64,000 nucleotides of DNA from Arenibacter sp. P308M17 (GTDB lineage: Bacteria; Bacteroidota; Bacteroidia; Flavobacteriales; Flavobacteriaceae): the NCBI RefSeq assembly GCF_003426735.1, contig NZ_QVON01000001.1:496001-560000 (forward strand), given 5' to 3'. A program made the position numbers and the translations under genes. Below, piece by piece: positions 29,333-52,340 of this stretch (position 1 is its first letter; every line of letters starts with the position of its first letter). The notes beneath the pieces were generated by a model, which had not been told where the DNA came from, did not search any database, and saw only the letters and a list, made by a program, of their open reading frames with translations.

Positions 29333-29577
29333 CGCTCGTGCCCGTAAGAGTAAGTAAACCATAGTGCAAAAGAAAACGATAGTTTAAAAATGAGGAGCAA
29401 ATACAAATTCCCTAATCCTACTGAATATACTGGCAAGTGCATTGGTGCAAATTCTGCAAAAGTACAATCCAACTAAAATTATTTGTTACATTGGGCCAAT
29501 GAAATTTAATTACAAGTTACTATATCCGTAGGTTGTGCGTAATTTCACAAAAATTCCTCATTTCAAAATAGAATACT

Positions 29578-29598
29578 TATCTTTGACGTTAGTAACGT
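29578..29598 (+). promoter_or_regulatory. higBA promoter and operator palindrome
   Basis: TATCTTTG (29578-29585) is a perfect -7 box. It is followed immediately by the 13-bp palindrome ACGTTAGTAACGT (29586-29598), which would cover the transcription start. This is a natural HigA operator, 8 bp before the higB ATG. Confidence 0.6.
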
Positions 29599-29606
29599 GA
29601 AAAGAT

Positions 29607-29888
29607 ATGATATTGTCCTTTGGTTCAAAACCGACCGAACAAATTTGGAATGGCATTCGGGTTAAGAAAATGCCGATTGAAGTTCAAAATGTAGGACGAA
29701 GGAAGCTCAGAATGCTGAACAACTCACAGGACATTTCTGATTTAAGGATTCCACCGTTGAACCGATTTGAAAAGCTTAGTGGAAAATTAGGTGATTATTA
29801 TAGCATTCGAATAAACAAACAATGGCGTATAATGTTTTTATGGGACAAAGGAAACGCAAGCGAAGTGGAAATAATAGATTATCCCTAA
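29607..29888 (+). CDS. higB: HigB-family toxin (plasmid maintenance killer protein)
   Basis: This 93-residue RelE-superfamily toxin begins MILSFGSKPTEQIWNG. It has the family stretch VGRRKLRMLNNSQDISDLRIPP, then RFEKLSGKLGDYYSIRINKQWRIMFLW, and ends VEIIDYP. HigB toxins cleave mRNA on the ribosome. In this family the toxin gene precedes the antitoxin gene, as here, with a 4-bp gap. It is the first unit of the cassette block. Confidence 0.93.
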   Translation: MILSFGSKPTEQIWNGIRVKKMPIEVQNVGRRKLRMLNNSQDISDLRIPPLNRFEKLSGKLGDYYSIRINKQWRIMFLWDKGNASEVEIIDYP

Positions 29889-29892
29889 AAAA

Positions 29893-30195
29893 ATGAAAAA
29901 GTTAGCAAATGTACATCCTGGCGAGATTTTGTTTTACGAGTTTCTTGAACCTCTTGAAATTTCGGCCTATCGACTATCAAAAGATTTGAAAATACCTCAA
30001 ACACGAATTTCGGAAATCGTAAAAGGCAATCGCAGAATAACAGCGGACACAGCTTTGCGATTGAGTAAATATTTTGGGAATTCAGCTAAGTTCTGGCTCG
30101 GACTTCAAGATGATTACGATATCGAGGAAGAGAATGAAACAAAGGGGTCGGAATTCAATGAAATTAGGCACTTCGAGAATAAAAACGTTGCCTAA
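29893..30195 (+). CDS. higA: HigA-family antitoxin
   Basis: This 100-residue Xre-type protein starts VHPGEILFYEFLEPLEISAYRLSKDL, the HigA signature. Its helix-turn-helix covers about 21-72 (TRISEIVKGNRRITADTALRLSKYFGNSAKFWLGLQ). It neutralises HigB and represses the operon, probably at the palindrome before higB. It follows higB by 4 bp. The last codons (NKNVA, then TAATAACCAAG) already lie in the repeat that follows the gene. Confidence 0.93.
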   Translation: MKKLANVHPGEILFYEFLEPLEISAYRLSKDLKIPQTRISEIVKGNRRITADTALRLSKYFGNSAKFWLGLQDDYDIEEENETKGSEFNEIRHFENKNVA

Positions 30196-30760
30196 TAACC
30201 AAGCGTTCGTGTGGTCGGTACTGCCCGTCCCGCAAATTTTTCGGGAGCCTAACATGAACGCAGTGTTGACTGAACCGGTCTGGGTCGGTTTGCCTGTATG
30301 GGGATTGATCTGTTTTTCTTGTGGGTTTTTGGGATGGCCTGTTGACCTATGGTGCTGCTTTTTAGTAATACATTCTGCTTTCTACTGTAAATTCCGCTTC
30401 TCGGATCCCATTGACCGTGGTATTTTAATGGTTTTTTCCGAAATCCCTTTGGTAAAAGGCCATAGGCATCCCATTACGCTTTTTGGAAGCTGTTTTTAGG
30501 TATTATTTGTTTTCTTGTCCTACCAATATGCCGGGGGTATTTTGGCTTCGTTTTCCACAAGGGATTATGCCGTCCATGAAGGGTGAAAAGTGGCTTGGAA
30601 CGGAGTTATTTTAGCGCGCCAAAAAGGGGTGGACCTAGCCTATTTTCATATACGGACTAACTATGGACTAACTATGGAGTATCTATGGACTATCTATGGA
30701 GTATCCCCGGACAAGACATTTGGTTTTTAAAATATCTATGCGCTATCAATTACAGAGACC
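30196..30760. repeat. Cassette spacer after higBA with two long repeats and an 11-bp minisatellite
   Basis: No gene is seen in these 565 bp. The start (TAACCAAGCGTTCGTGTGGTCGGTACTGCC) matches the spacer after 48472. About 30297-30475 recurs at 37338-37510 (GGGGATTGATCT, GGTCAGCTGACC-like, GTATTTTAATGG). About 30609-30708 recurs at 42076-42153 and ends in five tandem 11-mers (GGACTAACTAT type, 30654-30708). Confidence 0.65.
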
Positions 30761-32648: not shown

Positions 32649-33212
32649 CTATAATTGTGAATGCAAAAAGTCGGCAGTATCCTTTAATCCTCTATTTCTA
32701 AGTATATCTAAGACTTCGAACTCATCTAAGTCAGGATTTCGTCGATATAGTACCATTTCCTTAAAGGCCTTTATAGCTTCTTCAGGGTTTAAGTCAATAA
32801 TATCTGTCAGGAAGTCATCAGCGGTCTTTGCTGAAAGGCCAAAAGACGATAAATACTCTTTTGGAAAATCTTTTATATTATTGGTAACAATTACGTTTGC
32901 ATTTGTTTTGATTGCTGCGGCGAGTACATGGCAATCATTCTTGTCAGGTAATTCCAGTCCAGTAATCAACCCTGAATAGTTAGATACAAAAGCGTCCGGA
33001 AATGCTAAATTTGCCCTTGCCAAACGTTTTGAAATTTCTTCCTGTGAAACTCCTTTTCTTTTCATTACAGCAGCCCATTCATCAAAAATATGTTCACTCC
33101 ATTTAGGAGTATATAAATCATAATGCGCAAACCAAAACAGTAAATCCCTTATCTCAATTGGATAAATAACATTGGTATCCAAGACACAAATAAAACGAAC
33201 ACTATGTATCAT
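32649..33212 (-). CDS. PIN-domain toxin-like ribonuclease
   Basis: I start at ATG 33212 (MIHSVRFICVLDTNVIYP), giving 187 residues. The open frame continues 12 codons further but inside the upstream gene. PIN acidic residues are visible in VLDTNVIYP, in SEHIFDEW, in LPDKNDCHVLAAA and in VIVTNNIKDFP. PIN toxins cut tRNA, rRNA or mRNA. The start overlaps the end of the HTH partner gene by 11 bp. The C-terminal 50 residues extend beyond the classic VapC length. Confidence 0.88.
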   Translation of the reverse strand: MIHSVRFICVLDTNVIYPIEIRDLLFWFAHYDLYTPKWSEHIFDEWAAVMKRKGVSQEEISKRLARANLAFPDAFVSNYSGLITGLELPDKNDCHVLAAAIKTNANVIVTNNIKDFPKEYLSSFGLSAKTADDFLTDIIDLNPEEAIKAFKEMVLYRRNPDLDEFEVLDILRNRGLKDTADFLHSQL

Positions 33213-33657
33213 ACAACCCGATTTCTTCGTCAGATTGCATAATATCAATAATATGCTTTTTCTGAGCTTCTTTCATTTTTCTTTTATGCTGCATTACATC
33301 CTCAAACTTCACTCTTCGGTGTTTTCCAACCTTTGTGAAATCTATTTTTCCTTCCTCTAAAAGCTTAACAAAATGAGGTCTGGAACAACCCAAAATTTCA
33401 GCTGCCTTTTGAGTTGTAACTTCTGTAGCCATAGGTACCAAAGAAAATGGTTTCCCTTTACTCATTGCTTCCAGAATCTCTCCTAAAAGTTTCAATGCGC
33501 TTAATGGAATTTTAATTCTCTCCTGAGTCTCAGCTATCTCAATTTCCGGATTTTTGGACTTTAATTCCTTAATTACGGAAGAAAGAGCATCATATGATTG
33601 AATTGCAATTTTTTGCTCCTCTTTTGAGGCTTTATTAACGTTATTGTAAGTTTCCAT
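33202..33657 (-). CDS. Excisionase-family HTH antitoxin of the PIN pair
   Basis: This 151-residue protein has an N-terminal coiled region (1-70). A MerR/excisionase-type helix-turn-helix follows, VTTQKAAEILGCSRPHFVKLLEEGKIDFTKVGKHRRVKFEDVMQH (about 80-124). The tail is charged (KRKMKEAQKKHIIDIM). HTH proteins of this kind are common antitoxins of long PIN toxins. The genes overlap by 11 bp and are translationally coupled. Tandem 9-bp repeats upstream may be the operator. Confidence 0.88.
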   Translation of the reverse strand: METYNNVNKASKEEQKIAIQSYDALSSVIKELKSKNPEIEIAETQERIKIPLSALKLLGEILEAMSKGKPFSLVPMATEVTTQKAAEILGCSRPHFVKLLEEGKIDFTKVGKHRRVKFEDVMQHKRKMKEAQKKHIIDIMQSDEEIGLYDT

Positions 33658-33769: not shown

Positions 33770-34000
33770 GGTACTGCCTATCATTAATAAAACTAATTGG
33801 AGCCAAACATAAAGACCGTGTTAATATAATTGGGCCCAGTTTTCCTCTGCTATATGGCCTGCCAATTCATAAAATATCCTGGCGGTCAATGCCCCCTATC
33901 CCGTTTTAAATTGGGCCACTTTAAAGAAAACAAGAAAAAATTTCCCCAGCACAAACCAAAAATCCCTAAATTGGAAGAAATAAAATAGTAATCCCAAGAG
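33770..34000 (+). repeat. Cassette spacer, 5' half
   Basis: This non-coding stretch carries the standard spacer order: GGTCGGTACTGCC, a GGCCTGCCAATTCATAA block, CCCGTTTTAAATTGGGCCAC, AAAACAAGAAAAAAT, and the core AATCCCTAAATTGGAAG (33961-33977). The same order recurs in six other spacers. It is interrupted at 34001 by a MITE-like insertion. Confidence 0.7.
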
Positions 34001-34168
34001 TTAGTGTCCAGTCAAGCCTAAACCTACGGGTAATTTAATTTGTCTCTTGAGCCGCTCCTGTGTTGCAAAAATCCTTACGTAGCTACGGCTATGTGCGTTT
34101 TTTGCGCCTTGACCCAGCTCAAGATCCATCATTCCTTACCCGTCATTTAAACGTTGACTGGACACTTG
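34001..34168. mobile_element. ~165-bp MITE-like element inserted in a cassette spacer
   Basis: AGTGTCCAGTCAA (34003-34015) and its exact complement (34154-34166) form the ends. Imperfect inverted homology continues inward (ACGGGTAA on both sides). The core CGTAGCTACGGCTATG matches the larger element at 27572-27913, and the ends share AGTGTCCnGTCAA. The related spacer at 49640-49665 lacks it and serves as an empty site. No target duplication is evident. Confidence 0.68.
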
Positions 34169-34329
34169 GGTAGTGCAAAACCGAGACCAACACCGTCATT
34201 CCCTCCAGACGCTGTAAAATAGGGATCTTACAAATCCGGCTATAGTAAGCAGCAAAATTTATTTGTTACATTGGGCCTATAAAAGAAATGTAATTAGCAG
34301 TTACTATATCCGTATCTTGGCGGCAAGTA
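34169..34329 (+). repeat. Type-beta cassette repeat, 3' half of spacer
   Basis: CAAAACCGAGACCAACACCG, CCCTCCAGACGCTGTAAAAT and ACATTGGGCCTATAAAAGAA recur at 49664-49824 and, degenerate, at 29470-29540. It ends in CTTGGCGGCAAGTA (34316-34329), which is largely complementary to TACCGGCCGCTAAC at the end of the same unit (36277-36290). Confidence 0.65.
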
Positions 34330-34442: not shown

Positions 34443-35438
34443 ATGGGACAAAACAATTATAACGGAGCTTTACAGAAACCGATAGGTTCGCGCTTCAACG
34501 GAAAATCAACTTCAACAGAAGTTATCAAAAGCATTGACCTTAAAGGTAAAACCGCCATTGTTACAGGTGGAAACACGGGAATAGGATTGGAAACAGTGAA
34601 AACGCTTGCCATTGCAGGCGCAACGGTAATCGTTCCTGCAAGAGACATTGAAAAAGCAAAAAACAATTTACGGGGAATTGCCAATGTAGAAATAGAGGAA
34701 ATGGACTTATTAAACCCTGCTTCCATTAATACATTTGCTGAAAAGTTTTTGGCTTCGGACAAACCGTTGCATTTGCTGATAAACAATGCTGGCATTATGT
34801 GGGTTCCGATACGCAGAGACAGTCGCGGAATAGAATCACAATTGGCAGTAAATTATTTAGCACAATTCCATCTCTCTGCCAAATTATGGACAGCATTAAA
34901 AAAAGCAAATGGCGCAAGAGTTATTAATGTATCATCGCAAGGACATCAATTTGCCACTTTTAATTTTGAAGACCCAAATTTTGAATATCGGGAATACGAA
35001 ACCTTGCAAGCTTATGGACAATCAAAAACCGCTGTCAATCTGTTTTCTCTTGAATTGGACAACCGGGCAAAAAAGTTTGGTGTAAGAGCATATTCATTAC
35101 ATCCAGGTTCTATTGGCGGTACAGAATTAGCTAGAGAAGCACCTTTGGAATTATTTATAAAAATGGGTTTTTGCAATGGGAAAGGAGATATGTTACCTGA
35201 AGTTGCCGCGTCACTCAAAACAATTCCGCAAGGTGCATCTACAACGATTTGGTGCGCGACAAGTCAGTTGCTAAACAACATTGGCGGTGTGTATTGTGAA
35301 GACAACGACATAGCCGAATTGTACTTAGGACAAGAGTTTTCAGCAGGCATAAAACCCTATTCGGTGGACGAAACTAATGCAAAGCGTTTGTGGGAATTAA
35401 GCGAAAATTTAACCAACATTACTTTTAACGTTGTTTGA
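34443..35438 (+). CDS. Short-chain dehydrogenase/reductase
   Basis: This 331-residue NAD(P)-dependent oxidoreductase shows the cofactor motif TGGNTGIG (about 39-46), LLINNAGI (about 110-117), the catalytic serine in INVSSQGHQ, and YGQSK with the Tyr/Lys pair (about 188-192). It is longer than classic SDRs and resembles retinol-dehydrogenase/WW-oxidoreductase-type members. The substrate is unknown. The AraC gene starts 30 bp downstream, and its product probably activates this promoter. Confidence 0.92.
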   Translation: MGQNNYNGALQKPIGSRFNGKSTSTEVIKSIDLKGKTAIVTGGNTGIGLETVKTLAIAGATVIVPARDIEKAKNNLRGIANVEIEEMDLLNPASINTFAEKFLASDKPLHLLINNAGIMWVPIRRDSRGIESQLAVNYLAQFHLSAKLWTALKKANGARVINVSSQGHQFATFNFEDPNFEYREYETLQAYGQSKTAVNLFSLELDNRAKKFGVRAYSLHPGSIGGTELAREAPLELFIKMGFCNGKGDMLPEVAASLKTIPQGASTTIWCATSQLLNNIGGVYCEDNDIAELYLGQEFSAGIKPYSVDETNAKRLWELSENLTNITFNVV

Positions 35439-35467
35439 TATTTGTAATTTTACATTACACAAGTAAT

Positions 35468-36289
35468 ATGGAATTTCAGTTCACATATATAACAGACGAC
35501 ATTAAACTTTCTTGTTACGAAGACAAATTGTTTAAGACAGAAGTTGTGTTTGACCACCATATGCTTGTGTGGTTCATTTCTGGCGAAACAAAAATCATTC
35601 AGGCAGACCAAAACTATTTGTTTAAAGCAGGTGACATCTTTCTTATTCCAAGAAATCAGTTAGCGACAATTATTAATTACCCAAAAGATGGATTGCCCCA
35701 TAAGTCTGTAGTAATGCACCTTTCAGTTGACAGACTACGAGAATTTTACGCCAACATGAGCGTAAAACCAAAAGTTTCCGCAACACAAAAAATAAAAAGC
35801 TTTAACCAACACCCATTATTGGAAAGTTGTCTTGCTTCTTTAATACCTTATTTTGATGTGCAAGAAAAATTTCCCGAGAATATCGCTTCATTAAAAATTA
35901 CGGAAGCTATTAGCGTTTTGCGGACAATTGACAAAAACATTGATACTATTTTAGCCAATTTTGAGGAACCACATAAAATTGACTTAGCAGATTTCATGGA
36001 AAAGAATTTTATGTTCAATATGCCTTTGGAAAAGTTCGGCTATTTGACAGGACGAAGCCTTACAACATTCAAACGTGATTTTCATAAGATTTTCAACATA
36101 ACGCCACAACGTTGGCTGACACAAAAGCGTTTAGCGTTGGCCCATTACCAACTTGCCGAAAAAAACAGAAAACCCATTGAGGTGTATTTAGAAATAGGAT
36201 TTGAAAACTTATCGCATTTCTCATCCGCTTTTAAAAAACAATTCGGATTGACACCAACAGAACTTATCCTTAAAAATACCGGCCGCTAA
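35468..36289 (+). CDS. AraC-family transcriptional regulator
   Basis: I start at ATG 35468 (MEFQFTYITDDIKLSCYEDK), giving 273 residues. A TTG 33 bp upstream overlaps the SDR stop and is less likely. The N-terminal cupin-like domain (HHMLVWFISGETKIIQADQNYLFKAGDIFLIP) probably senses a ligand. The C-terminal double helix-turn-helix includes EKFGYLTGRSLTTFKRDFHKIF and EVYLEIGFENLSHFSSAFKKQFGLTP. It likely controls the SDR gene through the upstream direct repeats. The last codons overlap the terminal cassette repeat. Confidence 0.93.
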   Translation: MEFQFTYITDDIKLSCYEDKLFKTEVVFDHHMLVWFISGETKIIQADQNYLFKAGDIFLIPRNQLATIINYPKDGLPHKSVVMHLSVDRLREFYANMSVKPKVSATQKIKSFNQHPLLESCLASLIPYFDVQEKFPENIASLKITEAISVLRTIDKNIDTILANFEEPHKIDLADFMEKNFMFNMPLEKFGYLTGRSLTTFKRDFHKIFNITPQRWLTQKRLALAHYQLAEKNRKPIEVYLEIGFENLSHFSSAFKKQFGLTPTELILKNTGR

Positions 36290-36433
36290 CAACTAAGGTT
36301 TCGTTCAACAACGGCTCATACGCCATTGCTATCTTGCAGACTAATTGAAATTATAAACTTTATTGATTTGAACCGGGCGCGCTTAGGTCTTAATTTGCCG
36401 CTACAGCGCATAAACGCACCGTTGGGTGTAATT
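36290..36433 (+). repeat. attC-like hairpin site after the AraC gene
   Basis: TAACAACTAAGG at the stop is followed by CAACGGCTCATACGCCATTGC. The site ends with GCCGCTACAGCGCATAAACG and CACCGTTGGGTG. The two halves are imperfectly complementary and can fold back, like an integron attC. The outer arms do not match the canonical RYYYAAC/GTTRRRY exactly. Confidence 0.5.
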
Positions 36434-36462
36434 TTGGAGCAATTTTTGATGTCTTAATCAAT

Positions 36463-36942
36463 ATGAAAAGCTTTTCCTTTTTACTGGTTATTTTGTTATT
36501 TGCCGGAAACTCAACATTTGGACAGGAAAATACAATTTCTGAATTTGACTTATATGGTTGCTGGAAAATGAAACTTGGGACAAACGAAAATGGAATTAAA
36601 AAAAGGACTTATATCTCTTGTGGGATTTCCGAACCGAAAAATTCCGAAAAGCACTCTAGTATTGTTTTCAAAGCCTTTAATAAGTGTGAATTTCCAGCAG
36701 TAATCCAAGACGCCCTTTGCCCACTTATTTATAAAAATGTCGAAGGGACTTGGAAATACGACAAAAAATCTGGAATAGTAGAAATTTATTACCCAAAGGA
36801 CTTCAAAAAAGAGTTCTGGGACGCGGTAAAAGAAGAATCTCCTGAAGCGGAAATTCCTAACCCAAGAATGAAAACAAAGTTCAAAATAGTTGGGTTTGAA
36901 AAATGGACAGCTGGAAATAGAATAATTACGCCCAATAACTAA
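36463..36942 (+). CDS. Small secreted protein of unknown function
   Basis: This 159-residue product has a clear signal peptide (MKSFSFLLVILLFAGNSTFG). The mature part begins ENTISEFDLYGCWKMKL and contains several cysteines (GC, SCG, NKCEF, DALCPL) and a GTWKYDKKSGIVEIYYP strand pair. It may be a lipocalin-like domain; I cannot name a family. Its final codons (ATT ACG CCC AAT AAC TAA) lie inside the terminal repeat. GTTGGGTGTAATT upstream (36421-36433) is complementary at 11 of 13 positions to AATTACGCCCAAT (36924-36936). Confidence 0.8.
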   Translation: MKSFSFLLVILLFAGNSTFGQENTISEFDLYGCWKMKLGTNENGIKKRTYISCGISEPKNSEKHSSIVFKAFNKCEFPAVIQDALCPLIYKNVEGTWKYDKKSGIVEIYYPKDFKKEFWDAVKEESPEAEIPNPRMKTKFKIVGFEKWTAGNRIITPNN

Positions 36943-37261
36943 GAAGCGTTCTTGTGGCCAGCATGGCCCAGCATAAACCCCATGTTAACCACACCCAGTC
37001 CCGAGTTTCCCTGTACCATGTAGACTACCAATTTATATAATATTCCGGTTATTAATGCCAGCCATTCCGTTTCAATCTGCGCCACTTAAGGCAAACAAGT
37101 AAAAAACTCCCACAACACAAAGCAAAAATCCCTAAATTGGAAGAAATAAAAAGTTATCCAAATTAAATAGCAAGGTTAGCGCAAAACCGACACCGCATAG
37201 TTCAGCGGCGGTTTAAATATAACTGCGCACTTGGCTTCGGTGATTAAATCCTATAATGTTG
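36943..37261 (+). repeat. Cassette spacer ending in a type-alpha repeat
   Basis: This non-coding stretch holds TAACTAAGAAGCG, the block ACCATGTAGACTACCAATT, CATTCCGTTTCAATCTGCGCC, the core AATCCCTAAATTGGAAG (37127-37143), and type-alpha sequence (GCAAAACCGACACCGCATAG to ATCCTATAATGTTG, 37180-37261). Unlike at other spacers, no plus-strand gene follows, so a cassette gene seems to have been lost here. Confidence 0.65.
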
Positions 37262-40424: not shown

Positions 40425-40431
40425 AAAAACC

Positions 40432-43430: not shown

Positions 43431-43904
43431 AAAAGCGAAGATAAAAGCGGCCTTTTAGAACCGTTTGGATATTCTGGAGCATGCTGACCCCTCAAAAGCT
43501 TTCTCGGTGGTCAGTACCACCCATTCCATTTTAATCTTTACTACTTAAGTAAAACAAGAAAAAAATCCCGTTGGCGCGAGCGTCACACCTGCCTTTGTCG
43601 GCAGACAGGCCCATCCTAACGGCGTGGGCAAGCCTGTCTGCCGGCGAGGCAGGCTCGTGCCTTTTCTTAAATTGGCATGCCAACTAGCCATAAGGCAGTC
43701 TTAAATGCCGCTCCTGTCCCTCTGCTTTGCATATATTAACCAAAATTCCCTAAATTGGAAGAAATATAAAGGATTAAGACCCATAGCAAGGATAGCGTAA
43801 AACCGACACCTCAGAGTTCATCGGCGAGCTCCTAAAAACTGTGCCCTTGGCTTACCTAATTTAATCCTATAATGTTGGTACCGATTAAAAAAAAGAAAAA
43901 CTAA
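43431..43904 (+). repeat. Cassette spacer with repeat E, a GC hairpin and a type-alpha end
   Basis: Repeat E (AAAGCGGCCTTTTAGAACCG, GACCCCTCAAAAGC, 43445-43545) also occurs at 49528-49590 and 52124-52230. Arms 43588-43610 and 43632-43653 (CCTGCCTTTGTCGGCAGACAGGC type) are nearly perfect inverted copies. The core AATTCCCTAAATTGG lies near 43744. A type-alpha repeat (43795-43880) ends CCTATAATGTTGG. Confidence 0.65.
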
Positions 43905-44438
43905 ATGACTGAAGAACCACGATACGCTAAATTTTGGGACAGATTCGGAGCATATATTCTGGACGCATTAATAGTTGGACTCATTTCATACGGAATAAAT
44001 TATTTAAACTTCATAAGCTTGAAGAGTTTTTATATCTATTTACCTATTGCCCTAATCGCAATTCTTTACAAACCTTATATGGAAAGTCGGCATCAGGCTA
44101 CTTTGGGAAAAATGGCGCTTAATTTAAAAGTTACCAACTTAAATTACGAACAAATTGATTTTGAAAAATCACTTCTCAGAAGTTTAATAGTAATGATTCC
44201 CGCATTATTCTTTATTCCAGTCCAATATTTGGCTTTTTACAATCCTAATCTATTGGCAATAGAAGGGTTTTGGAATTTTTCCAAAGGAGTAGCGGAAACC
44301 TATCCTACTATGAGGACCTTTAACAGTATATATTCCTTAGTATTTATCGCTGACTTAATATTCCTTTTAACGGACAGTTCAAAAAGAAATCGAAGTTTAA
44401 AAGATAGAATAGCGAAAACCTTAGTACTTCAAAAATAA
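43905..44438 (+). CDS. RDD-family membrane protein
   Basis: This 177-residue protein begins with the RDD signature ARYAKFWDRFGAYILDALIVGLISY (R and D residues in the first helix). It has about four membrane helices at 20-35, 45-60, 90-115 and 140-160. TLGKMALNLKVTNLNYEQIDF is the second conserved block. RDD proteins may act as transporters or membrane adaptors, and some exchange cations, but the role here is unknown. It is a single-gene cassette. Confidence 0.88.
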   Translation: MTEEPRYAKFWDRFGAYILDALIVGLISYGINYLNFISLKSFYIYLPIALIAILYKPYMESRHQATLGKMALNLKVTNLNYEQIDFEKSLLRSLIVMIPALFFIPVQYLAFYNPNLLAIEGFWNFSKGVAETYPTMRTFNSIYSLVFIADLIFLLTDSSKRNRSLKDRIAKTLVLQK

Positions 44439-44781
44439 TTTCTATTGCTCAATAACTAACCTGCCTGCAATCTCCAGATCCTGTTGATGGATCATGTCTC
44501 CAACTATATGGACTGCCAATCATTAACATATTCCGTTTATTAGTACCACCCATCCCGTTTTAAACTGTTCTATTTAAGGAAGAACGGAAAAATTCCCTTT
44601 CACAAACCAAAAATCCCTAAATTGGAAGAAATAAAAAGGATCCAAAGTAAATAATTAGGATAGTAAAAAACCGACACCGCATAGTTCAAGGACGAACCCA
44701 AGAAAACTGCCCCTTGGCTTTAATATTGTTAAACTAAATGAGTAGAGGGGGTAGTAAAGTATTAATAGTATAAGTGAATTA
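44439..44781 (+). repeat. Cassette spacer before the YIP1 gene
   Basis: It has CAATAACTAACCTGCCTGC, ATATGGACTGCCAATC, CATCCCGTTTTAAACTG, the core AATCCCTAAATTGGAAG (44612-44628), and a type-alpha repeat (ACCGACACCGCATAGTTCAA, 44665-44740). The last 40 bp differ from the usual CCTATAATGTTG ending. Confidence 0.6.
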
Positions 44782-45435
44782 ATGAATAGTGAACTAATAA
44801 ACACCGAAAATCAACAAGAGTTATCCGACAAGGAGATTTTTATGGAAATTTGGACTTCTCCAAGAAAGGTCTTCAAATTCATAAATGACAACCATTATGA
44901 CAAATATGTAAATGGACTTTTGTTTTTCGCTGGGATCTCAAGTGCATTCGACAGAGCCTCTTTGAAGAATTCTGGAGACAATTTGTCCTTAATAGCAATA
45001 TTGGCTCTTTGTATAATAGTAGGTGGCCTTTTAGGGTGGATTTCATATTATATATATGCAGCTTTGTTAAGCTGGACAGGAAAATGGATAAATGGTGAAG
45101 GTGATACTAAGTCAATTTTAAGAATTATTTCTTATGCTATGACACCGGCAATAATTGCGCTAATTTTTCTCATACCTCAAATTGGAATTTATGGAAATGA
45201 AATGTTCAAATCAGATGGAGATATAAGCAGTGCTGGAATTGTCGCGAATATTTTTGTTTATAGTTCTATGATTTTAGAATTCATTCTAGGTATTTGGACA
45301 ATAGTCTTTTGCGTAGTTGGTGTTTCTGAAGTCCAAAAACTATCAATTGGAAAATCAATTGTAAATTTAATATTACCTCTTTTAGTTTTTGCTATTCCAA
45401 TAATGATAATTGTATTGATAATTAAAGCGTTGTAA
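44782..45435 (+). CDS. YIP1-family integral membrane protein
   Basis: This 217-residue protein has a polar N-terminus with the YIP1 start (EIWTSPRKVFKFINDN). About five membrane helices follow at 70-95, 110-135 (ISYAMTPAIIALIFLIP), 155-180 and 195-217. The conserved SYAMTP and AGIVANIF segments fit the family. Its role in bacteria is not established. The TPR protein gene begins 14 bp downstream, so the two form a two-gene cassette. Confidence 0.85.
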   Translation: MNSELINTENQQELSDKEIFMEIWTSPRKVFKFINDNHYDKYVNGLLFFAGISSAFDRASLKNSGDNLSLIAILALCIIVGGLLGWISYYIYAALLSWTGKWINGEGDTKSILRIISYAMTPAIIALIFLIPQIGIYGNEMFKSDGDISSAGIVANIFVYSSMILEFILGIWTIVFCVVGVSEVQKLSIGKSIVNLILPLLVFAIPIMIIVLIIKAL

Positions 45436-45449
45436 ATAAAACGAAATTA

Positions 45450-46457
45450 ATGAAAAACTTTAATCTGTATTTCTTCTGCGTACTCGCATTAAATTTTCAA
45501 ATCATCTCCGGACAAGTAGATAAAATTGCAGATTTGGTAAAACAGGGAATCGACCATCATGATAGAGGAGAGTTTGATCAAGCTATCGAAATATATCAAA
45601 ATGCATTAGCCATAGATGAAAACTCTAGTTTGGCCAACTATGAAATAGCGTATACCTATCTGTCCAATAACCAATATGAATTAGCAGAAAAATATAGCAA
45701 AAGAGTCCTTGACCTAAAAAATGGCAACCTGCTCGAAGGTTATATTGCATATGGTAATTCTCTTGATTTACAGGGCAAAAACAAAAAGGCTATCCAGGCA
45801 TATGAAGAGGGATTAAAGACCTTTGACAATTATTTATTGCATTATAATCTGGCAATGGCCCATTATAATTCCGAAAATTATGATAAGGCGTCAGAATCTG
45901 CAATTAATGCGATATTGAACAATTCGTCACATGCCAGCAGCCATTTGATATTAAGCAAAATTATGGTTAATAAAAACGTACGTATAAAAGCAATGCTTCC
46001 CTTATACTTTTTTCTAATGATAGAACCAAATTCAGAAAGAGCTGGTATTGAATACAAAAACCTAAGAAATTATTTGGCCTATGGCGTTACACAAAAGGAT
46101 AATAACAATGTAGACATCACGGTACCAATGAATGGAGATGTAGATTTTGGAGCGGCTGAAATGATGATAAGTTTACTAAAGGCGTCGGAGAATTTGGAAA
46201 AAAATGAAGGGAAATCCGATATGGAACTATTTGCTGACAATAATCACAAATTATTTAAAATTTTAGGTGAACTTAAAAAAGAGAATACTGGTTTTTGGTG
46301 GGACTTTTATGTTACCTTCTTTTATGACATGGCCAAAGAGAACCTAACAACTCCATATAGCTACTACATATCCCTTTCCAAAGGACAAGAAGTGCTGGAT
46401 TGGTTGGATAAAAATAGTAACGATTTTGAACGTTTCTCCGGATGGTTAACAGAATAA
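45450..46457 (+). CDS. Secreted tetratricopeptide-repeat protein
   Basis: This 335-residue protein has a signal peptide (MKNFNLYFFCVLALNFQIISG). At least four TPR-like helical hairpins span about 30-190: DHHDRGEFDQAIEIYQNALA, SNNQYELAEKYSKRVL, LDLQGKNKKAIQAYEEGL and NSENYDKASESAINAIL. The C-terminal 140 residues (LAYGVTQKDNNNVDITVP onward) form an unrecognised domain. It is probably a periplasmic scaffold linked to the YIP1 membrane protein encoded upstream. Confidence 0.88.
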   Translation: MKNFNLYFFCVLALNFQIISGQVDKIADLVKQGIDHHDRGEFDQAIEIYQNALAIDENSSLANYEIAYTYLSNNQYELAEKYSKRVLDLKNGNLLEGYIAYGNSLDLQGKNKKAIQAYEEGLKTFDNYLLHYNLAMAHYNSENYDKASESAINAILNNSSHASSHLILSKIMVNKNVRIKAMLPLYFFLMIEPNSERAGIEYKNLRNYLAYGVTQKDNNNVDITVPMNGDVDFGAAEMMISLLKASENLEKNEGKSDMELFADNNHKLFKILGELKKENTGFWWDFYVTFFYDMAKENLTTPYSYYISLSKGQEVLDWLDKNSNDFERFSGWLTE

Positions 46458-46668
46458 ACAACCAATACCTAACACTTGATCCAATTCAGAGTGGAAGTAT
46501 AAAAAACAAGTACAGTTAAAATAATAGCCAGTAATCAAAATGTCAAACTCAAATGGAAATAAATGATACATTCCAACTATATTTTTTTATTACATTAGGT
46601 CTATTGAGAATATTTTTTTCATAACTATATCCAATCGTTGGCATTCATTATAAAAAAATCAACCAAAC

Positions 46669-47421
46669 TTGAGGACATTAAAAATTATTATCGGATTTCT
46701 ATTGCTTTATGGAGCTGGAACGGAATATGTTGCGGCAAGTCGAGAAGTTGGCTCTTGGTACTCGGCTGGAGTAATTGGAGGTGTTATAACAATGCTTTTG
46801 ATATGTACTTGGCTAATCGGAACTGGATTTTCAAACTCAAAATATAAGCTTAGTAAAATTCAGATAGCGAAATGCCTAGTAATTTCTATTGCCCTATTTT
46901 CCTTGATTGCATTTATCAAAATAGGTACGTATGTGGTTCCCAAAAATTTTGTAGAAATAAATGGTCTTAAAGTACCTATTGGCAAATGTATTGACGGAAA
47001 TCGAAGACTAATATCGGACAATAAAAAAAGAGAGGACTACTGCACTTGCTTTGTCGAAAAAATAACAGCGGTCCCAGAATTTAAAGAAAAGTATCAAAAC
47101 CAACTGGAAAGCGATAAAATAATGGAGGTTTTCAAAGAAGTTCAAAGTGACCCTAAATATCTGGACTTGAAAATTGAAGAATGCTTTGAGGTTGCTCAAA
47201 TGAAATGGACGGACGAGTTGGCGGAAGCGATGAAAAGAAATTGGAAAAAAGAGTTGGCAGGAACGGAATTCGCACAGACAAACGATATCGAGAAATATAG
47301 CGACTGCCTAATTGAAAAATATCGTAAATATCCGTTTCAGGAAATAATGTCCGACGGTTTTGCGGAAAGCGAAGAGGCTATTGCGATAGATGAAGAGTGT
47401 ACGAAAGCCTCGGAAAAATAA
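46669..47421 (+). CDS. Membrane-anchored protein of unknown function
   Basis: This 250-residue product starts at TTG 46669; no ATG in frame gives a full first helix. Three membrane helices lie at about 3-20, 35-55 and 67-85, followed by a soluble domain with paired cysteines (GKCIDGNRR, DYCTCFVEK, EECFEVAQ, SDCLIEKY, DEECTKASEK). The regular cysteine spacing suggests disulfide-bonded helical hairpins facing the periplasm. The unit is bracketed by GTTGGCATT (46637-46645) and its exact complement AATGCCAAC (47425-47433). No family is recognised. Confidence 0.75.
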   Translation: MRTLKIIIGFLLLYGAGTEYVAASREVGSWYSAGVIGGVITMLLICTWLIGTGFSNSKYKLSKIQIAKCLVISIALFSLIAFIKIGTYVVPKNFVEINGLKVPIGKCIDGNRRLISDNKKREDYCTCFVEKITAVPEFKEKYQNQLESDKIMEVFKEVQSDPKYLDLKIEECFEVAQMKWTDELAEAMKRNWKKELAGTEFAQTNDIEKYSDCLIEKYRKYPFQEIMSDGFAESEEAIAIDEECTKASEK

Positions 47422-47424
47422 GGA

Positions 47425-47643
47425 AATGCCAACAATGGTTATAACAAACAGAGCATAAAGGGCTAAATTTAATGGCTTTGGCGTGTTTACTATGTCCGTC
47501 ACATCTTTTGGCTTTGGAAATTTAAAAAATAATTACAAACGGAAAGCTCTGGCTTCGAGTGTAGACGGAAACTGGCCAGCGCGCCCACTGCTGTCGCAGA
47601 TGTCGTACCTCCGCACTACGCTTAACTAAGACGTTGGCAACAT
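47425..47643 (+). repeat. attC-like site between two unknown-gene cassettes
   Basis: The site begins AATGCCAACAATGGTTATAAC and ends GCACTACGCTTAACTAAGACG then TTGGCAACA. The outer arms TGCCAAC and GTTGGCA are exact complements. Inner blocks (AAAGGGCTAAATTTAATGG, GGAAAGCTCTGGC) give further imperfect pairing. From memory, very similar sequences follow single genes in other Flavobacteriia. Length is 219 bp, longer than most integron attC sites. Confidence 0.5.
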
Positions 47644-47650
47644 TTGAGAA

Positions 47651-48472
47651 ATGACGAAATGCATTCAAATTTTATTAATTCTATTGACATTATCTGCTTG
47701 CGGACAAAATGCAACTGAAATGAAAACACCAGAAAATGCGAATGAAATGTTTGCGGAATTCATTGCAAAGAAAAAGTTCATTAAACAACCATATCCAAAT
47801 TACTATCCTGGAATTGCAGACGAAAAAATGCGCCCAATTTTTACGGAAAAAATAAACCAAGTTGCGACTGACTTTAAGACTGTTGCGGAATCTGAAAAAC
47901 CGACTAATAAAATGTATCAAGCAAAAATCGGAATTGGACTTTCAAGGTTTGCAGACATTTATCTGGAATTAGATACCGAAGACAGAGAAAGAATTTGTAT
48001 GTATTTCGAGGAATTAATGGATGTTGTCGGACTGGAAGGTTCGAATGGTCAACTCAATAAATTTATGTACGGTTTTGACCCAATGGAAAAGCCAAAAGAA
48101 AAAAAGTGGACCGATTCGCACGGAAACGTTTTTATTGAAAAAGGGACTGAAGTTTCAATAATTCCAGCGAAATACGATAAAACAGGAAAAAAATACAAGG
48201 TTTTCCTTTACAACGAAACAACTGAAGCTATTGGAATAATAAAAGACTTGATTATAAAACCGAGGGAATTTAAAGTATTTAACGTTTCAGATACAGATAC
48301 TCTTAAATTAGATAATGGAGTTAAGTTTATGTTCGGAGAAACCTATGGACTTGAAGTTGAGGACAAAAAATCACAAGTTAGTGGACTTGGAGGGAAATAT
48401 TTGACTGATTATGGCGTGCCCAATGAAATTGATTTTGCTTTTGTCATAGTTCCAGTTGGAAAAGGAGATTAA
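47651..48472 (+). CDS. Lipoprotein, DUF4844-like
   Basis: This 273-residue protein has a lipoprotein signal ending LTLSAC (cysteine at 17) followed by GQNATEMKTPEN. The block FIAKKKFIKQPYPNYYPGIADEKMRPIFTEKINQ and IYLELDTEDRERICMYFEELMDVVGLESS-like residues fit DUF4844 as I recall it. The C-terminal 110 residues form a separate beta-rich domain (KWTDSHGNVFIEKGTEVSII). Function is unknown. It is a single-gene unit directly after the attC-like site. Confidence 0.8.
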   Translation: MTKCIQILLILLTLSACGQNATEMKTPENANEMFAEFIAKKKFIKQPYPNYYPGIADEKMRPIFTEKINQVATDFKTVAESEKPTNKMYQAKIGIGLSRFADIYLELDTEDRERICMYFEELMDVVGLEGSNGQLNKFMYGFDPMEKPKEKKWTDSHGNVFIEKGTEVSIIPAKYDKTGKKYKVFLYNETTEAIGIIKDLIIKPREFKVFNVSDTDTLKLDNGVKFMFGETYGLEVEDKKSQVSGLGGKYLTDYGVPNEIDFAFVIVPVGKGD

Positions 48473-48828
48473 GAATAAAAAACTACCACCAATAACTAAG
48501 CCTTGGTGTGGTCGGTACTGCCTGTCCTGCACATTTTGCGGGAGCCTAACATAAATACCCAATTACCTTAACCCAGGCCCAGATTCACCTTACCATATGG
48601 CCTGCCAATTAATAATATATCCCGGCAGTCAGTGCCACCCATTCCGTTTCAATCTGTGCCACTTTTTAACGACAACAAGAAAAAAGTACCAGTTGGCGCG
48701 GGCGTTACGCCCTGCCTTTGCATATATTAACCAAAAATCCCTAAATTGGTAAGAAATAAAAAAGTTCAAATTTCCATAGCTTGGTAAGGGCAGGAGGGAA
48801 GGCTGCATACCAACATAACTCTTCTATC
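48473..48828 (+). repeat. Cassette spacer after the DUF4844-like gene
   Basis: The order is CAATAACTAAGCC, GTGTGGTCGGTACTGCCTG, CATATGGCCTGCCAATTAAT, CATTCCGTTTCAATCTGTGCC, GGCGCGGGCGTTACGCCCTGC, and the core AATCCCTAAATTGG (48736-48749). The core is followed not by a type-alpha or type-beta end but by AAGGGCAGGAGGGAAGGCTGC and a group II intron remnant. Confidence 0.65.
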
Positions 48829-48880: not shown

Positions 48881-48947
48881 ACAAACACGTTATCCTTTAT
48901 TTTAATAATCTTTTAGCTAAATATTAGGTGTAATTTCCAAAGTTCAT

Positions 48948-49538
48948 ATGAAGAAATCAGAAATTAGAAAAGAAATCAAAGTAATATTAAAAAATGGAAC
49001 ATCTAAGATTGGGGTATATGAGTCATTGAGGCAACGTGATGATATACCCGATGTAGAATTAAGAAAGCTCCTAGCTTCAATACCTGATGCCAATATTGAT
49101 AAAATTGACAAAGTCCTGCACAAGATTATTTGTGTATTTTGGGTTCTGTTTGCACTTATTGAGATTGGAAATGTGATTGATGGGCTAATATCAATTAATT
49201 TAAAACTTTTGATCTCATTTATTGTTACAGTTTACATAACGGTCCAAATATGGAGATTCAATGGAGATTTATATTTACCTGCAATTGTTTGGCTTGGGCT
49301 ATCGGTCATAAACGCCCTTAGGGAATTTTATTCGATTGACCCTTATGATCCTGACTATGAACTATATCAAATTATGACCTATGTCTATATTTCGGTTGTA
49401 ATAATTGTTATTGCACTCATGATAATAGTAAGAAAAAATGTTTTCGGTTACTATAAATGGTTTAAGCCGGAAATGAATTTCAAGAATGAAATAATGTTTG
49501 AAAACTATAAAACTACTCTTAATAATGACCCCTCATAA
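48948..49538 (+). CDS. Membrane protein of unknown function
   Basis: This 196-residue protein has a charged N-terminal domain (KKSEIRKEIKVILKNGTSKIGVYESL, 1-45). Four hydrophobic helices follow at about 57-78, 85-100, 108-122 and 142-163, with a polar tail. It lacks a signal peptide and I do not recognise the family. The unit has a repeat E copy (GACCCCTCATAAGC) right at its stop. It could be an immunity or stress protein, but nothing shows it. Confidence 0.75.
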   Translation: MKKSEIRKEIKVILKNGTSKIGVYESLRQRDDIPDVELRKLLASIPDANIDKIDKVLHKIICVFWVLFALIEIGNVIDGLISINLKLLISFIVTVYITVQIWRFNGDLYLPAIVWLGLSVINALREFYSIDPYDPDYELYQIMTYVYISVVIIVIALMIIVRKNVFGYYKWFKPEMNFKNEIMFENYKTTLNNDPS

Positions 49539-49824
49539 GCTCCCTCGGCTATAAGTGCCACCCACTCCGTTTTAAACTTTTCTATTTAAGTAAGAACAGA
49601 AAATTTTTCCCTTCATAAACCAAAAATCCCTAAATTGGTTAGGAATAAAATAGTAATAGCAAAGGTTGCGCAAAACCGAGACCAACACCGTCATTCCCTC
49701 CAGACGCTGTAAAATAGGTGTCGTACAAATCCTACCAAATCAATTAGACAAAAGTTATTTGTTGCATCGGACCTATAAAAGAAATATAGTAACTTGTGGA
49801 TACTATATCTGTACGTTGTGCAGC
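49539..49824 (+). repeat. Cassette spacer ending in a type-beta repeat
   Basis: It has repeat E, CCACTCCGTTTTAAAC, the core AATCCCTAAATTGG (49625-49638) and the uninterrupted junction AAATAGTAATAGCAAAGG, which is the empty-site equivalent of the MITE at 34001. The type-beta block follows (49664-49824). It ends CGTTGTGCAGC (49814-49824), which is complementary at 10 of 11 positions to GCAGCACAACG (50732-50742). Confidence 0.65.
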
Positions 49825-49839
49825 ATTTAAAAGAAAAAA

Positions 49840-50715
49840 TTGATTAGAAAATATCTGATATTCCCCTTTCTTTTAATTCCAATTTTGAGTTGGAGTCAAT
49901 ATGAAGTTACTGGAGTTGTAACATCTAAAACCGATAATGATTTAATCCCAGGTGTAATCGTAATTGAAAAAGGGACTAAAAATGGAGCTCAAACAAACTT
50001 AAACGGTCAATTTTCAATTAAAGTTTCAGATCCTAACGCAATCTTGATTTTTTCATTTGTCGGAATGGTAACCAAAGAATACAGTCTCAAAGGTGAAAAT
50101 AAAATAATAGTCGAAACGAAATGGGATTGTAACAAAGATTTCTTTGATGCAAATAGTATTAGAATTTATGGGCAATCAGGGCTAATTAACAATCCTTTTG
50201 GTGGTCAAATTGAGATCGCGTCTCCATATATAATATCAGGAGGAGTATTAGATGCTAGTTATAGCTATCAAACCAATTCAGAAAAGAATACCTTTCATAG
50301 AGGTAGTTTGGAATTTAAACATCCAATATCAAATTGTGATTTTGACATAGATTTTAGGATTAGCTACCGCGATTTTCAATTTGAAAACCAATTTGACAAT
50401 AACGCTTATTCATTTGAAATTGACCTGAACCTATCAAGAATTAGTTTTATAGCGGGTTACACAAATTTAGATTTCAATGACCTAACCACTTCAATCAATC
50501 AAAATTCTTCAGGAGTATTGATTGGATTTGGAACCAAATTAGGAAAACCGTTATTTCCTGAATTAGTAGGCAAAATCTCAATATATGATGATTTCATCGA
50601 ATATCAAGGTAGAATTCAAGGGAGTTACAAACGGTTCTTGTTATTTCTGAAATATTATAGATTGAGTTCTTTTAATGAATTGAGTCTTGGAATAGGATAT
50701 AGCTTATTTTATTAA
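49840..50715 (+). CDS. Carboxypeptidase-like-domain protein with predicted beta-barrel-like C-terminus
   Basis: This 291-residue product starts at TTG 49840, which gives a proper signal peptide (MIRKYLIFPFLLIPILSWSQ). A CarboxypepD_reg-like domain follows (about 20-95: YEVTGVVTSKTDNDLIPGVI, then GAQTNLNGQFSIKVSDP and FSFVGMVTKEYSL). The last 170 residues have alternating polar/aromatic strands ending LGIGYSLFY, which suggests a small outer-membrane barrel. It resembles a TonB receptor reduced to its N-domain and a short barrel. Function is unknown. Confidence 0.8.
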   Translation: MIRKYLIFPFLLIPILSWSQYEVTGVVTSKTDNDLIPGVIVIEKGTKNGAQTNLNGQFSIKVSDPNAILIFSFVGMVTKEYSLKGENKIIVETKWDCNKDFFDANSIRIYGQSGLINNPFGGQIEIASPYIISGGVLDASYSYQTNSEKNTFHRGSLEFKHPISNCDFDIDFRISYRDFQFENQFDNNAYSFEIDLNLSRISFIAGYTNLDFNDLTTSINQNSSGVLIGFGTKLGKPLFPELVGKISIYDDFIEYQGRIQGSYKRFLLFLKYYRLSSFNELSLGIGYSLFY

Positions 50716-50731
50716 CTAGTGATGAAAAAAC

Positions 50732-50868
50732 GCAGCACAACGACAACGCCTATACCCCATTGCTCCCCTTCGCTTGTCTTAATTTCCTATCTTAGGTTAT
50801 TATAAATCAATCTTGGTTTGGTCTGGGCTTCTAAAGCAACGGGGCATAGCCAGGGCCGTTGTGAGCAA
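50732..50868 (+). repeat. attC-like hairpin site
   Basis: ACAACGCCTATACCCCATTGCT near the left end pairs, with gaps, with AGCAACGGGGCATAGCC and GGGCCGTTGT near the right end. The two halves can form a long imperfect hairpin with unpaired bases, as attC sites do. It is only 137 bp and links two unrelated unknown genes. Confidence 0.55.
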
Positions 50869-50882
50869 GCTAAAAAAACGAA

Positions 50883-51431
50883 GTGAGAAACATTGAACAA
50901 TTGATAAAAGAATTAATTCCACCGAATGATTATCAGAATCGGAATGGATTTAGTAATGAACACATTGTTTTAAGCTTGACCGAAAAAGAAAAAGTAGAAG
51001 TTGAGCGAAATCTAATTGAAATGCCCAAACAGGAAGAAGATGACATGATTGGAGAAACTTTGACAATAATGAAATCGACTGACTCGCTTCCGACTTTGCA
51101 GAAACGTCTGAACTTAACTAAAAGTCCGACTATGAAAATTATTTGGGCGAGTTACATAAACGAAATAAATAATGGAGATGAGAAAATGAAAGAAATCGCG
51201 TTAAACGAAATGGACAAAATTTCTGAAAAATATTCGCGAATCGGAATCTTTCATCATTTAGCAAAATTTCGAGATTCTCGAATAAATGACAAGATTCGGA
51301 ATTTTATAAATCACGAAGACTATTTGACTGCATACAATGCGAGAACGTCTTTGGGAATGGAAACAGCGGAAATAATTAAACGAGAACAAATAAAAAACGG
51401 AATCGGAACTAAAAAATGGTGGGAAATATAG
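50883..51431 (+). CDS. Soluble protein of unknown function
   Basis: This 182-residue protein starts at GTG 50883. It is almost all helical, with repeated short helices (SLPTLQKRLNLTKSPTMKIIWASYINEI, then IGIFHHLAKFRDSRINDKIRNFI and AYNARTSLGMETAEI). The layout suggests HEAT-like repeats. There is no signal or membrane segment. Such small helical cassette proteins are sometimes immunity factors, but that is a guess. It lies between two attC-like sites. Confidence 0.72.
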   Translation: MRNIEQLIKELIPPNDYQNRNGFSNEHIVLSLTEKEKVEVERNLIEMPKQEEDDMIGETLTIMKSTDSLPTLQKRLNLTKSPTMKIIWASYINEINNGDEKMKEIALNEMDKISEKYSRIGIFHHLAKFRDSRINDKIRNFINHEDYLTAYNARTSLGMETAEIIKREQIKNGIGTKKWWEI

Positions 51432-51580
51432 AAATAAAGCCAGCTCATCACATAGATGCTAAGCGTAAAGCGGGCTGAACAGCTAAAATTGAGCACTTTT
51501 GCTCCTATGAAACTTTGCGGTAGGCGGACAGTGAGTCGCTCCGAAATCCCGCACTATGCTTAACTTGACCGTTACCATAC
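51432..51580 (+). repeat. attC-like site before the SRPBCC cassette
   Basis: It begins CCAGCTCATCACATAGATGC, contains TAAGCGTAAAGCGGGC, GCGGTAGGCGGACAG and CCGCACTATGCTTAACTTGACC, and ends GTTACCATAC (51571-51580). The 3' part closely follows the site at 47425-47643 (CCGCACTACGCTTAACTAAG). The terminal arm is the exact complement of GTATGGTAAC (52074-52083) at the end of the next unit. Confidence 0.52.
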
Positions 51581-51591
51581 ATACCCAAACA

Positions 51592-52110
51592 ATGCCGAAA
51601 ATTGAACTTCAAACTGAAATAAAAGCTGATAGAAATATCGTTTTTGACTTATCACGAAGTATCGATTTACATAAAATATCGACTGAACATACGAATGAAG
51701 AAGCAATTGCAGGAAAAACAAGCGGATTAATCGGAATGAATGAAAGCGTAACCTGGCGAGCTAAACACTTCGGAATTTATCAAAATCTGACTTCTAAAAT
51801 CACGGAATATAACCGACCAAAATACTTTGCAGACGAAATGGTTAAAGGTGCGTTTGCGGAGTTTAAACACCAACATCACTTTTCGGAATCGAATGGCGGA
51901 ACTTTGATGACCGACCTTTTTTATTATAAATCGCCTTTTGGAATTTTAGGTAAGCTAGCGGACAAACTCTTTCTTAAAAAATATATGACTGAATTACTGA
52001 CTGAACGAAACCGAATTGTAAAAGAGTTTGCGGAATCTGACAAATGGAAAGAAGTGATAAATGAAAAAAGTACGTATGGTAACAATGGTAACCGCTGCAC
52101 AACCCTATAA
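51592..52110 (+). CDS. SRPBCC/START-like ligand-binding protein
   Basis: I start at ATG 51592 (MPKIELQTEIKADRNIVFDLSRSIDLHK), giving 172 residues. The longer open frame upstream lies in the attC-like site. SRPBCC features are the first strand and helix, GLIGMNESVTWRAKHFGIYQNLTSKIT, then FADEMVKGAFAEFKHQHHF and a long C-terminal helix (LLTERNRIVKEFAE). Proteins of this type bind small hydrophobic ligands. The last residues (YGNNGNRCTTL) are encoded by the cassette-end repeat and are probably not functional. Confidence 0.85.
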   Translation: MPKIELQTEIKADRNIVFDLSRSIDLHKISTEHTNEEAIAGKTSGLIGMNESVTWRAKHFGIYQNLTSKITEYNRPKYFADEMVKGAFAEFKHQHHFSESNGGTLMTDLFYYKSPFGILGKLADKLFLKKYMTELLTERNRIVKEFAESDKWKEVINEKSTYGNNGNRCTTL

Positions 52111-52340
52111 ATTAAAAATTATCTATGATAAAAGCGGCCTTTTAGAACCGTTTGGATATACTTGTGCATGCAGACCCCTCAAGAGCTCCCTCGGTTATAA
52201 GTGCCACCCACTCCGTTTTAATCTGTACACCATAGGGTAAACAAGAAAAAATTTCCCTTGCTGGTGCGAGCGTCACGCTCACACCTCATATTAGTAAAAT
52301 GGACACTAAATTTTTCAACGTCAGGTTAAATTAAATCGCT
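52111..52340 (+). repeat. Last cassette spacer of the block
   Basis: It carries repeat E (AAAGCGGCCTTTTAGAACCG, GACCCCTCAAGAGC, 52124-52230), CCACTCCGTTTTAATCTG, and GGTGCGAGCGTCACGC. Neither the AATCCCTAAATTGG core nor a type-alpha or type-beta end follows, so the array stops here. A non-repetitive stretch then leads into direct repeat B. Confidence 0.6.

Follow-up and report, generated by a model that had tools for sequence, protein, structure and literature searches.

Sedentary chromosomal integrons, such as the Vibrio superintegron, possess an integrase, an attI site adjacent to it and an array of gene cassettes that runs one way, with attC sites of the form R''-L''-L'-R', a G|TT junction and a complementarity specific to each cassette, and all of these are shared by the flavobacterial integron-like system described here. 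Mobile elements that target attC are known as well, namely the IS1111-attC elements and the group IIC-attC introns, while the IS91 family of insertion sequences (IS) has rolling-circle ends and a GTTC/CTTG target. In the available text of PMC8618304, clusters of attC sites without an integrase are termed CALIN. As regards the phylum, the available text on IntegronFinder 2.0 gives a single complete integron for Bacteroidetes proper, that of Salinibacter ruber (PMC9024848), and passages of reviews count Bacteroidota among the integron-bearing phyla. We analyzed a stretch of 64,000 nucleotides, hereafter the window, from Arenibacter sp. P308M17 (positions 496001-560000 of contig C1; genome of 5.04 Mb in 26 contigs), which between about 29.2 and 52.5 kb carries an array of short gene units separated by repeated spacers. 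We consider it probable that this is a satellite cassette array of the flavobacterial system, the attC sites of which were invaded by an IS91-family element and then decayed.

The array comprises 17-18 short gene units, mostly on the plus strand and at least four on the minus strand. These encode a HigB-type toxin with a helix-turn-helix (HTH) antitoxin, a PIN/HTH pair, a short-chain dehydrogenase with an AraC-type regulator, VOC, MarR, RDD, Yip1 with TPR, and DUF4844 proteins, a serine hydrolase of the beta-lactamase fold and several orphans. An earlier note, made from the letters of the window alone, had described about 12 one- or two-gene units; its arrangement holds and its named contents (toxin-antitoxin, short-chain dehydrogenase with AraC, VOC, MarR, RDD, Yip1 with TPR, orphans) proved correct by domain identification, but its count was too low. 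The spacers are mosaics of blocks and not one single repeat, and the blocks follow the fixed order gene-A-B-(C)-D-(J)-[E or F-G]-gene. Among 47 runs with at least two of the blocks A/A2, B, D, E, F and G, taken from the P308M17 genome and its relatives, one was out of order, which bears out the same note on the recurrence of mostly plus-strand units with the same blocks in the same order. It was equally right on the seven copies of the spacer core AATCCCTAAATTGG, of which six are exact and one, at 43745, has one mismatch, all on the plus strand within 33961-49638; chance would give 1.7 matches at two mismatches or fewer, and seven were reached in 1 of 100 shuffles. A 152-bp spacer piece occurs at 26 places in the genome, 9 of them inside the window, and the core was found in 9 of 60 genomes searched, that is, P308M17 itself, seven others of the genus Arenibacter and one weak distant match. 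A scan of the window with Rfam gave no match at gathering thresholds.

No tyrosine recombinase gene was listed in C1:496001-560000 by the integron-integrase model search, as the earlier note had stated, and one of its suggestions, that the recombinase lies outside the window, is supported by a gene of the right family on contig C12 of the same genome. The intact C12 protein of 374 aa scored 227 bits against NF040815, the XerA/integron model (cut-off 220), and 201 bits against TIGR02249, below the cut-off of 265. In the P308M17 genome no protein passed the cut-off of the integron-integrase model; TIGR02249 gave at most 206 bits in the three proteins scanned and was over its cut-off in none of 11 genomes. 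All ten Arenibacter genomes searched hold related recombinases, and six of them (G001, G003, G004, G005, G006 and G017) have these as open frames of 378-385 aa, so that the integrases range from 374 to 385 aa; they match PF00589, and the catalytic residues R233, K258, H322, R325, H348 and Y357 are invariant in the 26 sequences aligned. Unlike the integrases of sedentary integrons, the flavobacterial family lacks the IntI-specific insertion (IntI1 residues 197-227, absent in all 11 members aligned) and has, relative to IntI1, an extra N-terminal part of about 100 aa, which is perhaps a substitute means of attC handling; the fold comparison covered residues ~101-373. The attI also differs in being a long palindrome, and the integrase is co-directional with the array. 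In the tree the position of IntI1 was unsure, with long branches.

A scan of named genomes found 79 integrase loci, all but three (L190, L223 and L231) under Bacteroidota titles. In the flavobacterial family 99 of 397 genomes matched the integrase at E <= 1e-70, 66 of them at 1e-118 or lower by hand count, while in the phylum 40 of 395 matched at 1e-70, mostly below 50% identity and perhaps representing other recombinases. A Persicobacter plasmid carries a 41% relative of the integrase, followed by a palindrome and G|TT. In three genomes the integrase has on its upstream side a divergent open reading frame of 126-131 aa (L137:675-1055, minus strand; L129:2548-2943, plus; L139:11155-11535, plus), which had no Pfam match over cut-off in the two that were scanned, and one of 133 aa occupies the corresponding place on the Persicobacter plasmid (L295:7495-7896). 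Of 70 contigs that carry the integrase, 21 (L155, L159, L161, L167 and L177 among them) break off no more than 500 bp downstream of it, which would be expected of assemblies interrupted at repeated sites or elements.

For the recombination sites we used 70 of the 79 loci, leaving out nine partial or distant ones. A palindrome followed by G|TT behind the integrase, which we take as the attI, was called by script in 50 of the 70. A palindrome score of at least 9 within 150 nt of the integrase end was seen in 43 of 61 loci (short ones were left out) against 0 of 46 control stretches 600 nt further on, and the arms pair at 8.84 of 9 positions within a locus against 3.03 of 9 across loci; as the palindromes were picked by the search itself, the meaningful comparisons are those with the control stretches and across loci. 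In 32 of the 35 loci with at least 900 bp downstream, the start of the first cassette recurred downstream as its reverse complement at a score of at least 8, against about 24% of shuffles, and the matched ends were mostly followed by CA..G..TATA, a motif outside the search pattern. Chaining of such ends gave 79 attC sites in 32 arrays, 72 of them with a stem of at least 6, of which 43 measure 134-142 nt and others near 200 or 58-85 nt; these lengths include a 9-nt flank on each side, and some of the short and long sites among the 72 are probably mis-paired. A scanner trained on 61 of the 79 chained sites was applied to genomes chosen as single-contig, the species of which may overlap with those of the training sites. 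In 12 stretches of 11 such genomes all 134 attC sites that it found lay on the array strand (0 on the other), the densest genome having 28 in 18 kb. The R''/R' rule was obeyed by 101 of 112 neighbouring pairs as against 557 of 17,556 non-neighbours (3.2%). Next to the C12 integrase itself lie an attI and a first cassette, the two ends of which agree at 9 of 10 positions.

The spacers of the window connect to this system at several points. In Arenibacter hampyeongensis (G005) the integrase heads an array with several textbook cassette ends, TTAGCACCA...TGGTGCTAA|C, TTGGCTGTA...TACAGCCAA|C and TTATAGGCA...TGCCTATAA|C, in which an untuned end-pairing test over 11 units gave p 0.014, and the spacer blocks M, B, D and E lie further down the same contig. 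Downstream of the G004 integrase, block A2 is met again in the array region, and the profile of block G matches the attI directly behind integrases in two distinct loci (L141, which equals L176, and L148) among the integrase loci searched. In the window, near-exact paired R''/R' ends are kept in four cassettes (36422/36926, 46638/47423, 49816/50731 and 51572/52073). Because the spacer blocks occur in an integrase-headed array of a relative, four cassettes have paired ends and a recombinase is encoded on C12, we regard the window array as integron-derived. The three attI-like G sites in the window suggest former integron heads that would have been fused into the array.

Two copies of a 2.4-kb element that encodes an IS91-type transposase and a tyrosine recombinase lie inside attC sites of G004. 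The junctions of copy 1 read ..GCAGCTAA|TAACTAAGTATTCGGC ... GGATTCGTTCAA|CAAGGGCTATAATTC.. and those of copy 2 ..GCTGCTAA|TAACTAAG...GTTCAA|CAATATGTATAAGCC.., and the element has TAACTAAG.. as its left end and ..GTTCAA|C as its right end. Both transposases scanned carry PF04986 (Y2_Tnp) and PF14319 (Zn_Tnp_IS91), with a Phage_integrase gene adjoining. A search for the element in 149 genomes of the family gave 25 matches in 6 genomes and 15 loci with both ends, where L290 and L291 are the same places as L288 and L289; each of these 15 shows AA at the left junction and CA at the right one, of which the right C belonged to the search pattern and the two left As and the right A did not. Taken together with the two G004 copies and one in an array of G013, 18 copies with both ends in view all lie between R'' and L''. 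For 12 of 27 left junctions the start of the same cassette, with a G before it, was located upstream, compared with 21 of 2,700 shuffled controls. The copy in the G013 array is intact, as is one on contig C5 of P308M17. In contrast to the IS1111-attC elements and the group IIC-attC introns, the element seen here has an IS91-family HUH transposase and an extra tyrosine recombinase, and sits between R'' and L''. A Vibrio furnissii plasmid (L297) is likewise annotated with an IS91-family transposase and a companion tyrosine recombinase, beside an arr gene; the attC specificity of the flavobacterial element is indicated by position only.

The intact C5 element is hit at its left end by the profile of window block A; the spacer at 48473 aligns to this end over 50 nt at 84%, and two window positions, 30197 (E 2e-5) and 40441 (E 5e-5), match the profile of intact left ends. 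Since block A matches the left end of the element, the repeated spacers are best read as attC sites together with decayed, mostly non-autonomous copies of the IS91-family element. Block E, considered as the right end of the element for its GTTCA, may equally be a remainder of attC. By analogy with integrons, the XerA/IntI-like tyrosine recombinase encoded on C12 would recombine G|TT at palindromic attI and at attC, and would stack gene cassettes mostly in one orientation; the anatomy is seen in the loci, the action is put forward by that analogy. The IS91-family element, to judge from its position at other loci, would enter attC after the R'' box (..NNNNNAA|) and ahead of the L'' arm (|CAN..). 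Most attC sites of the window were probably hit by the element or by a non-autonomous derivative, which then decayed; this would leave the same blocks, in unchanged order, after each gene. As insertion in attC should freeze cassettes, we take the window array to be probably old and for the most part immobile.

Several results weigh against this account. Among the element ends, the left end at L284 lacks AA, and an R' with a complementary L' stands behind the right end, beyond shuffles, in only 6 of the 15 two-ended loci. Blocks B and D match nothing in intact elements, and their assignment as parts of the element was rejected on that ground; no right-end match in the window reaches significance. 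Of the 12 relic A copies left after duplicate removal, the intact G013 copy included, only 2 obey the cassette rule, and both lie outside the window. End pairing over all window cassettes is weak (p 0.044 and 0.039), and two other units score 8/10 and one 9/10 at unaccepted stretches away from attC-like sites. Pairing of the block-defined ends gave no signal (4 pairs after removal of duplicates, p 0.38). At the strict attC threshold none of the window spacers scored, and the one hit in the window is on the minus strand. Finally, a segment common to P308M17 and G013 at 99.3% starts in D and ends in J and not at cassette ends, which fits better with homologous recombination between repeats than with the integrase. 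A generic attC scan of the window gave six hits of at least 23 on the array strand, against three on the other strand and 1.1 in shuffles; two of the six fall at cassette ends, and the scan is near chance except at a few sites. An alignment of the spacers, which the earlier note had put forward as a check, gave the fixed block order; most window spacers no longer score as attC, a decay that tells against the integron-derived reading and the reading of the spacers alike.

We also weighed whether the long A-B-D-E spacers could themselves be functional attC sites of unusual length, as the earlier note had proposed along with an integron-derived platform. Their fixed block order, their many copies and their boundaries near genes would agree with this, as would a cassette common to two arrays of the P308M17 genome at 97.8%, which ends at |TTGTAGC and GCTACAA|. 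Yet the block-defined ends (4 pairs) do not obey the R''/R' rule, none of the window spacers reaches the strict threshold, 43 of the 72 chained attC sites are only 134-142 nt long, and block A is the match to the end of an IS91-like element; we regard functional long sites as very unlikely, and the integron-derived part of the proposal as supported. An ordinary genomic island, the gaps of which were filled by a dispersed repeat family with no relation to integrons, would explain why most window spacers fail as attC and why the repeats are decayed, and it would accord with the five relatives that lack array blocks beside the left flanking genes and with a shared segment that breaks within spacers. 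It leaves unexplained the same spacers within an integrase-headed array, the attI-like G blocks and the four cassettes with paired ends, and we hold it to be highly improbable.

The remaining alternative, that the window array is still active with the C12 integrase acting in trans, could draw on the intactness of this integrase, with its catalytic residues invariant in the 26 aligned sequences, and on 42198-43502 of the window, found at 97% identity in another species. Against it, paired ends are kept in four cassettes only and most spacers are interrupted or decayed, so that we consider present activity unlikely. The satellite array with invaded and decayed attC sites remains the reading that we favour, and the window array has the look of an old satellite that lacks an integrase. 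It resembles CALIN in being a cassette array away from any integrase, and differs in that most of its attC sites are interrupted or decayed.

In the window itself, where features lie on the plus strand unless stated (the palindromic block J aside), the array is bracketed by a direct repeat of about 125 bp (29206..29331 and 52363..52489, 90% identical). It opens with block G, a degenerate attI-like site ending in ..TATATCCGTAGG|TTGTGCG (29473..29535), the cassette of the HigB-type toxin and HTH antitoxin (29607..30195) and a relic left end, or block A, of the attC-targeting IS91-like element (30194..30334; profile match 30197-30334). There follow the PIN domain and HTH_17 pair on the minus strand (32649..33657), a B-D-J-F spacer (33852..34237) in which block J forms a long imperfect palindrome between D and F (34003-34166), similar to a repetitive extragenic palindrome or a miniature inverted-repeat transposable element, and a second attI-like G relic (34252..34320). 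Behind the cassette of the short-chain dehydrogenase and AraC-type regulator (34443..36289) stands a 19-nt piece, CAACTAAGGTTTCGTTCAA (36290..36308), which we interpret as a footprint left between R'' and L'' by the IS91-like element. It resembles both element ends, with an R''-like stretch on one side and the next attC on the other; the right-end profile at 36296-36308 (E 0.77) is not significant alone. This next site, attC-like and of class K, has its R' at ACCG|TTGGGTG (36309..36421; scanner score 23.0), and leads into a cassette with the near-exact ends TTGGGTGTAATT ... AATTACGCCCAA|TAAC (36422..36935; 9/10 match; gene 36463-36942), a relic block A (36934..36968) and a B-D-E spacer (37018..37260).

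The middle part holds a unit for a lipocalin-like domain protein in reverse orientation (37537..39630, minus strand), a D-E spacer (39879..40021), the glyoxalase/VOC cassette (40071..40424), a relic left end (40441..40494), a cassette with the MarR regulator and a 167-aa orphan (40922..41868), and the stretch with the serine-hydrolase/beta-lactamase-fold gene (42198..43502; gene 42372-43430). Thereafter come a B-C-D-E spacer (43484..43876), the RDD cassette (43905..44438), a B-D-E spacer (44507..44729), the Yip1 and TPR cassette (44782..46457) and a cassette with the matching ends TTGGCATT ... AATGCCAA|CAATGG (46638..47432; 8/10; gene 46669-47421), which is followed by an attC-like site of the ~200-nt class M with R' at AGACG|TTGGCAAC (47433..47633; score 24.3). 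Sites of class M gave 24 matches across the 79 integrase loci. The DUF4844 cassette (47651..48472) precedes an A-B-C-D spacer that is read as an element relic (48491..48763; left-end profile weak, E 0.39 at 48493), and a B-D-F spacer (49527..49732) precedes the third attI-like G relic, in which the palindrome is partly kept before |TTGTGCAGC (49749..49818). The cassette behind it has the matching ends TTGTGCAGC ... GCAGCACAA|C (49816..50740; 8/10; gene 49840-50715) and an attC-like site of class Lx, with R' at GCCG|TTGTGAGC (50741..50858), which was assigned by eye and not recovered by the scanner. The array closes with a cassette with the near-exact ends TTACCATACATAC ... GTACGTATGGTAA|CAATGG (51572..52082; 9/10) and a terminal A2-B spacer (52131..52250).

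Beside the left flanking genes the array blocks were absent in all five relatives examined, and the bracketing 125-bp repeat was found in these two copies only among 18 genomes of the genus, from which we take the window array to be lineage-specific. A locus conserved across relatives was accordingly rejected, as the left-flank genes of the five relatives have no adjoining array block. For the right flank the alignment to four relatives starts only at the SusC-like side, and a single G-like match was seen in G014. The stretch 42198-43502 has its 97% identical counterpart in G016 in different surroundings, and 42627-43502 also matches G007; its left break lies near TATAATG|TTG and its right break within a spacer. 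Judged from such identities, exchange of array segments has happened. Between near-identical relatives, in which single-unit changes had been sought as a further check, five indels were examined; by eye they look like IS insertions or rearrangements and none has G|TT / AA|C boundaries, so that these indels gave no case of gain or loss of a single cassette. Among the arrays L081-L091 (G013/G002/G017 and G007/G016), stretches of 10-17 kb are 99.9-100% identical across assemblies assigned to different species, a sign either of recent transfer or of strains that are very close.

We searched the open literature, subscription journals and preprints lying outside this search, and came upon neither an integron of this kind in flavobacteria nor an IS91 element specific for attC; the NCBI name of the model for the enzyme (NF040815) already mentions integron integrase, and specialists may be aware of some of its members. 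We think it somewhat more probable than the opposite that flavobacteria harbour a second integron lineage, in which integrases devoid of the IntI domain act on canonical attC sites, the attI is a palindrome that forms a hairpin, and a dedicated IS91 predator owes a strict attC specificity to an IntI-like recombinase of its own. If this is true, a domain thought to be essential to IntI would have been replaced by other means. Searches that require the IntI insertion may miss the flavobacterial integrases, and the system offers a direct test of which part of an integrase recognizes attC. An attC-seeking IS91 element would also be one way in which cassette arrays may freeze.

A few neighbouring features may be noted. 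At 27571-27916 of the window, between sulfatase and hydrolase genes, lies a dispersed repeat with 15 more copies at 90-100% in the same genome, and block J is found also near 27801 and in other arrays. To the right of the array, 53626-56652 holds a SusC-like TonB gene, and related SusC-like TonB genes lie within about 4-10 kb of other arrays, namely L050 on contig C23 and L089 and L090 in G016.

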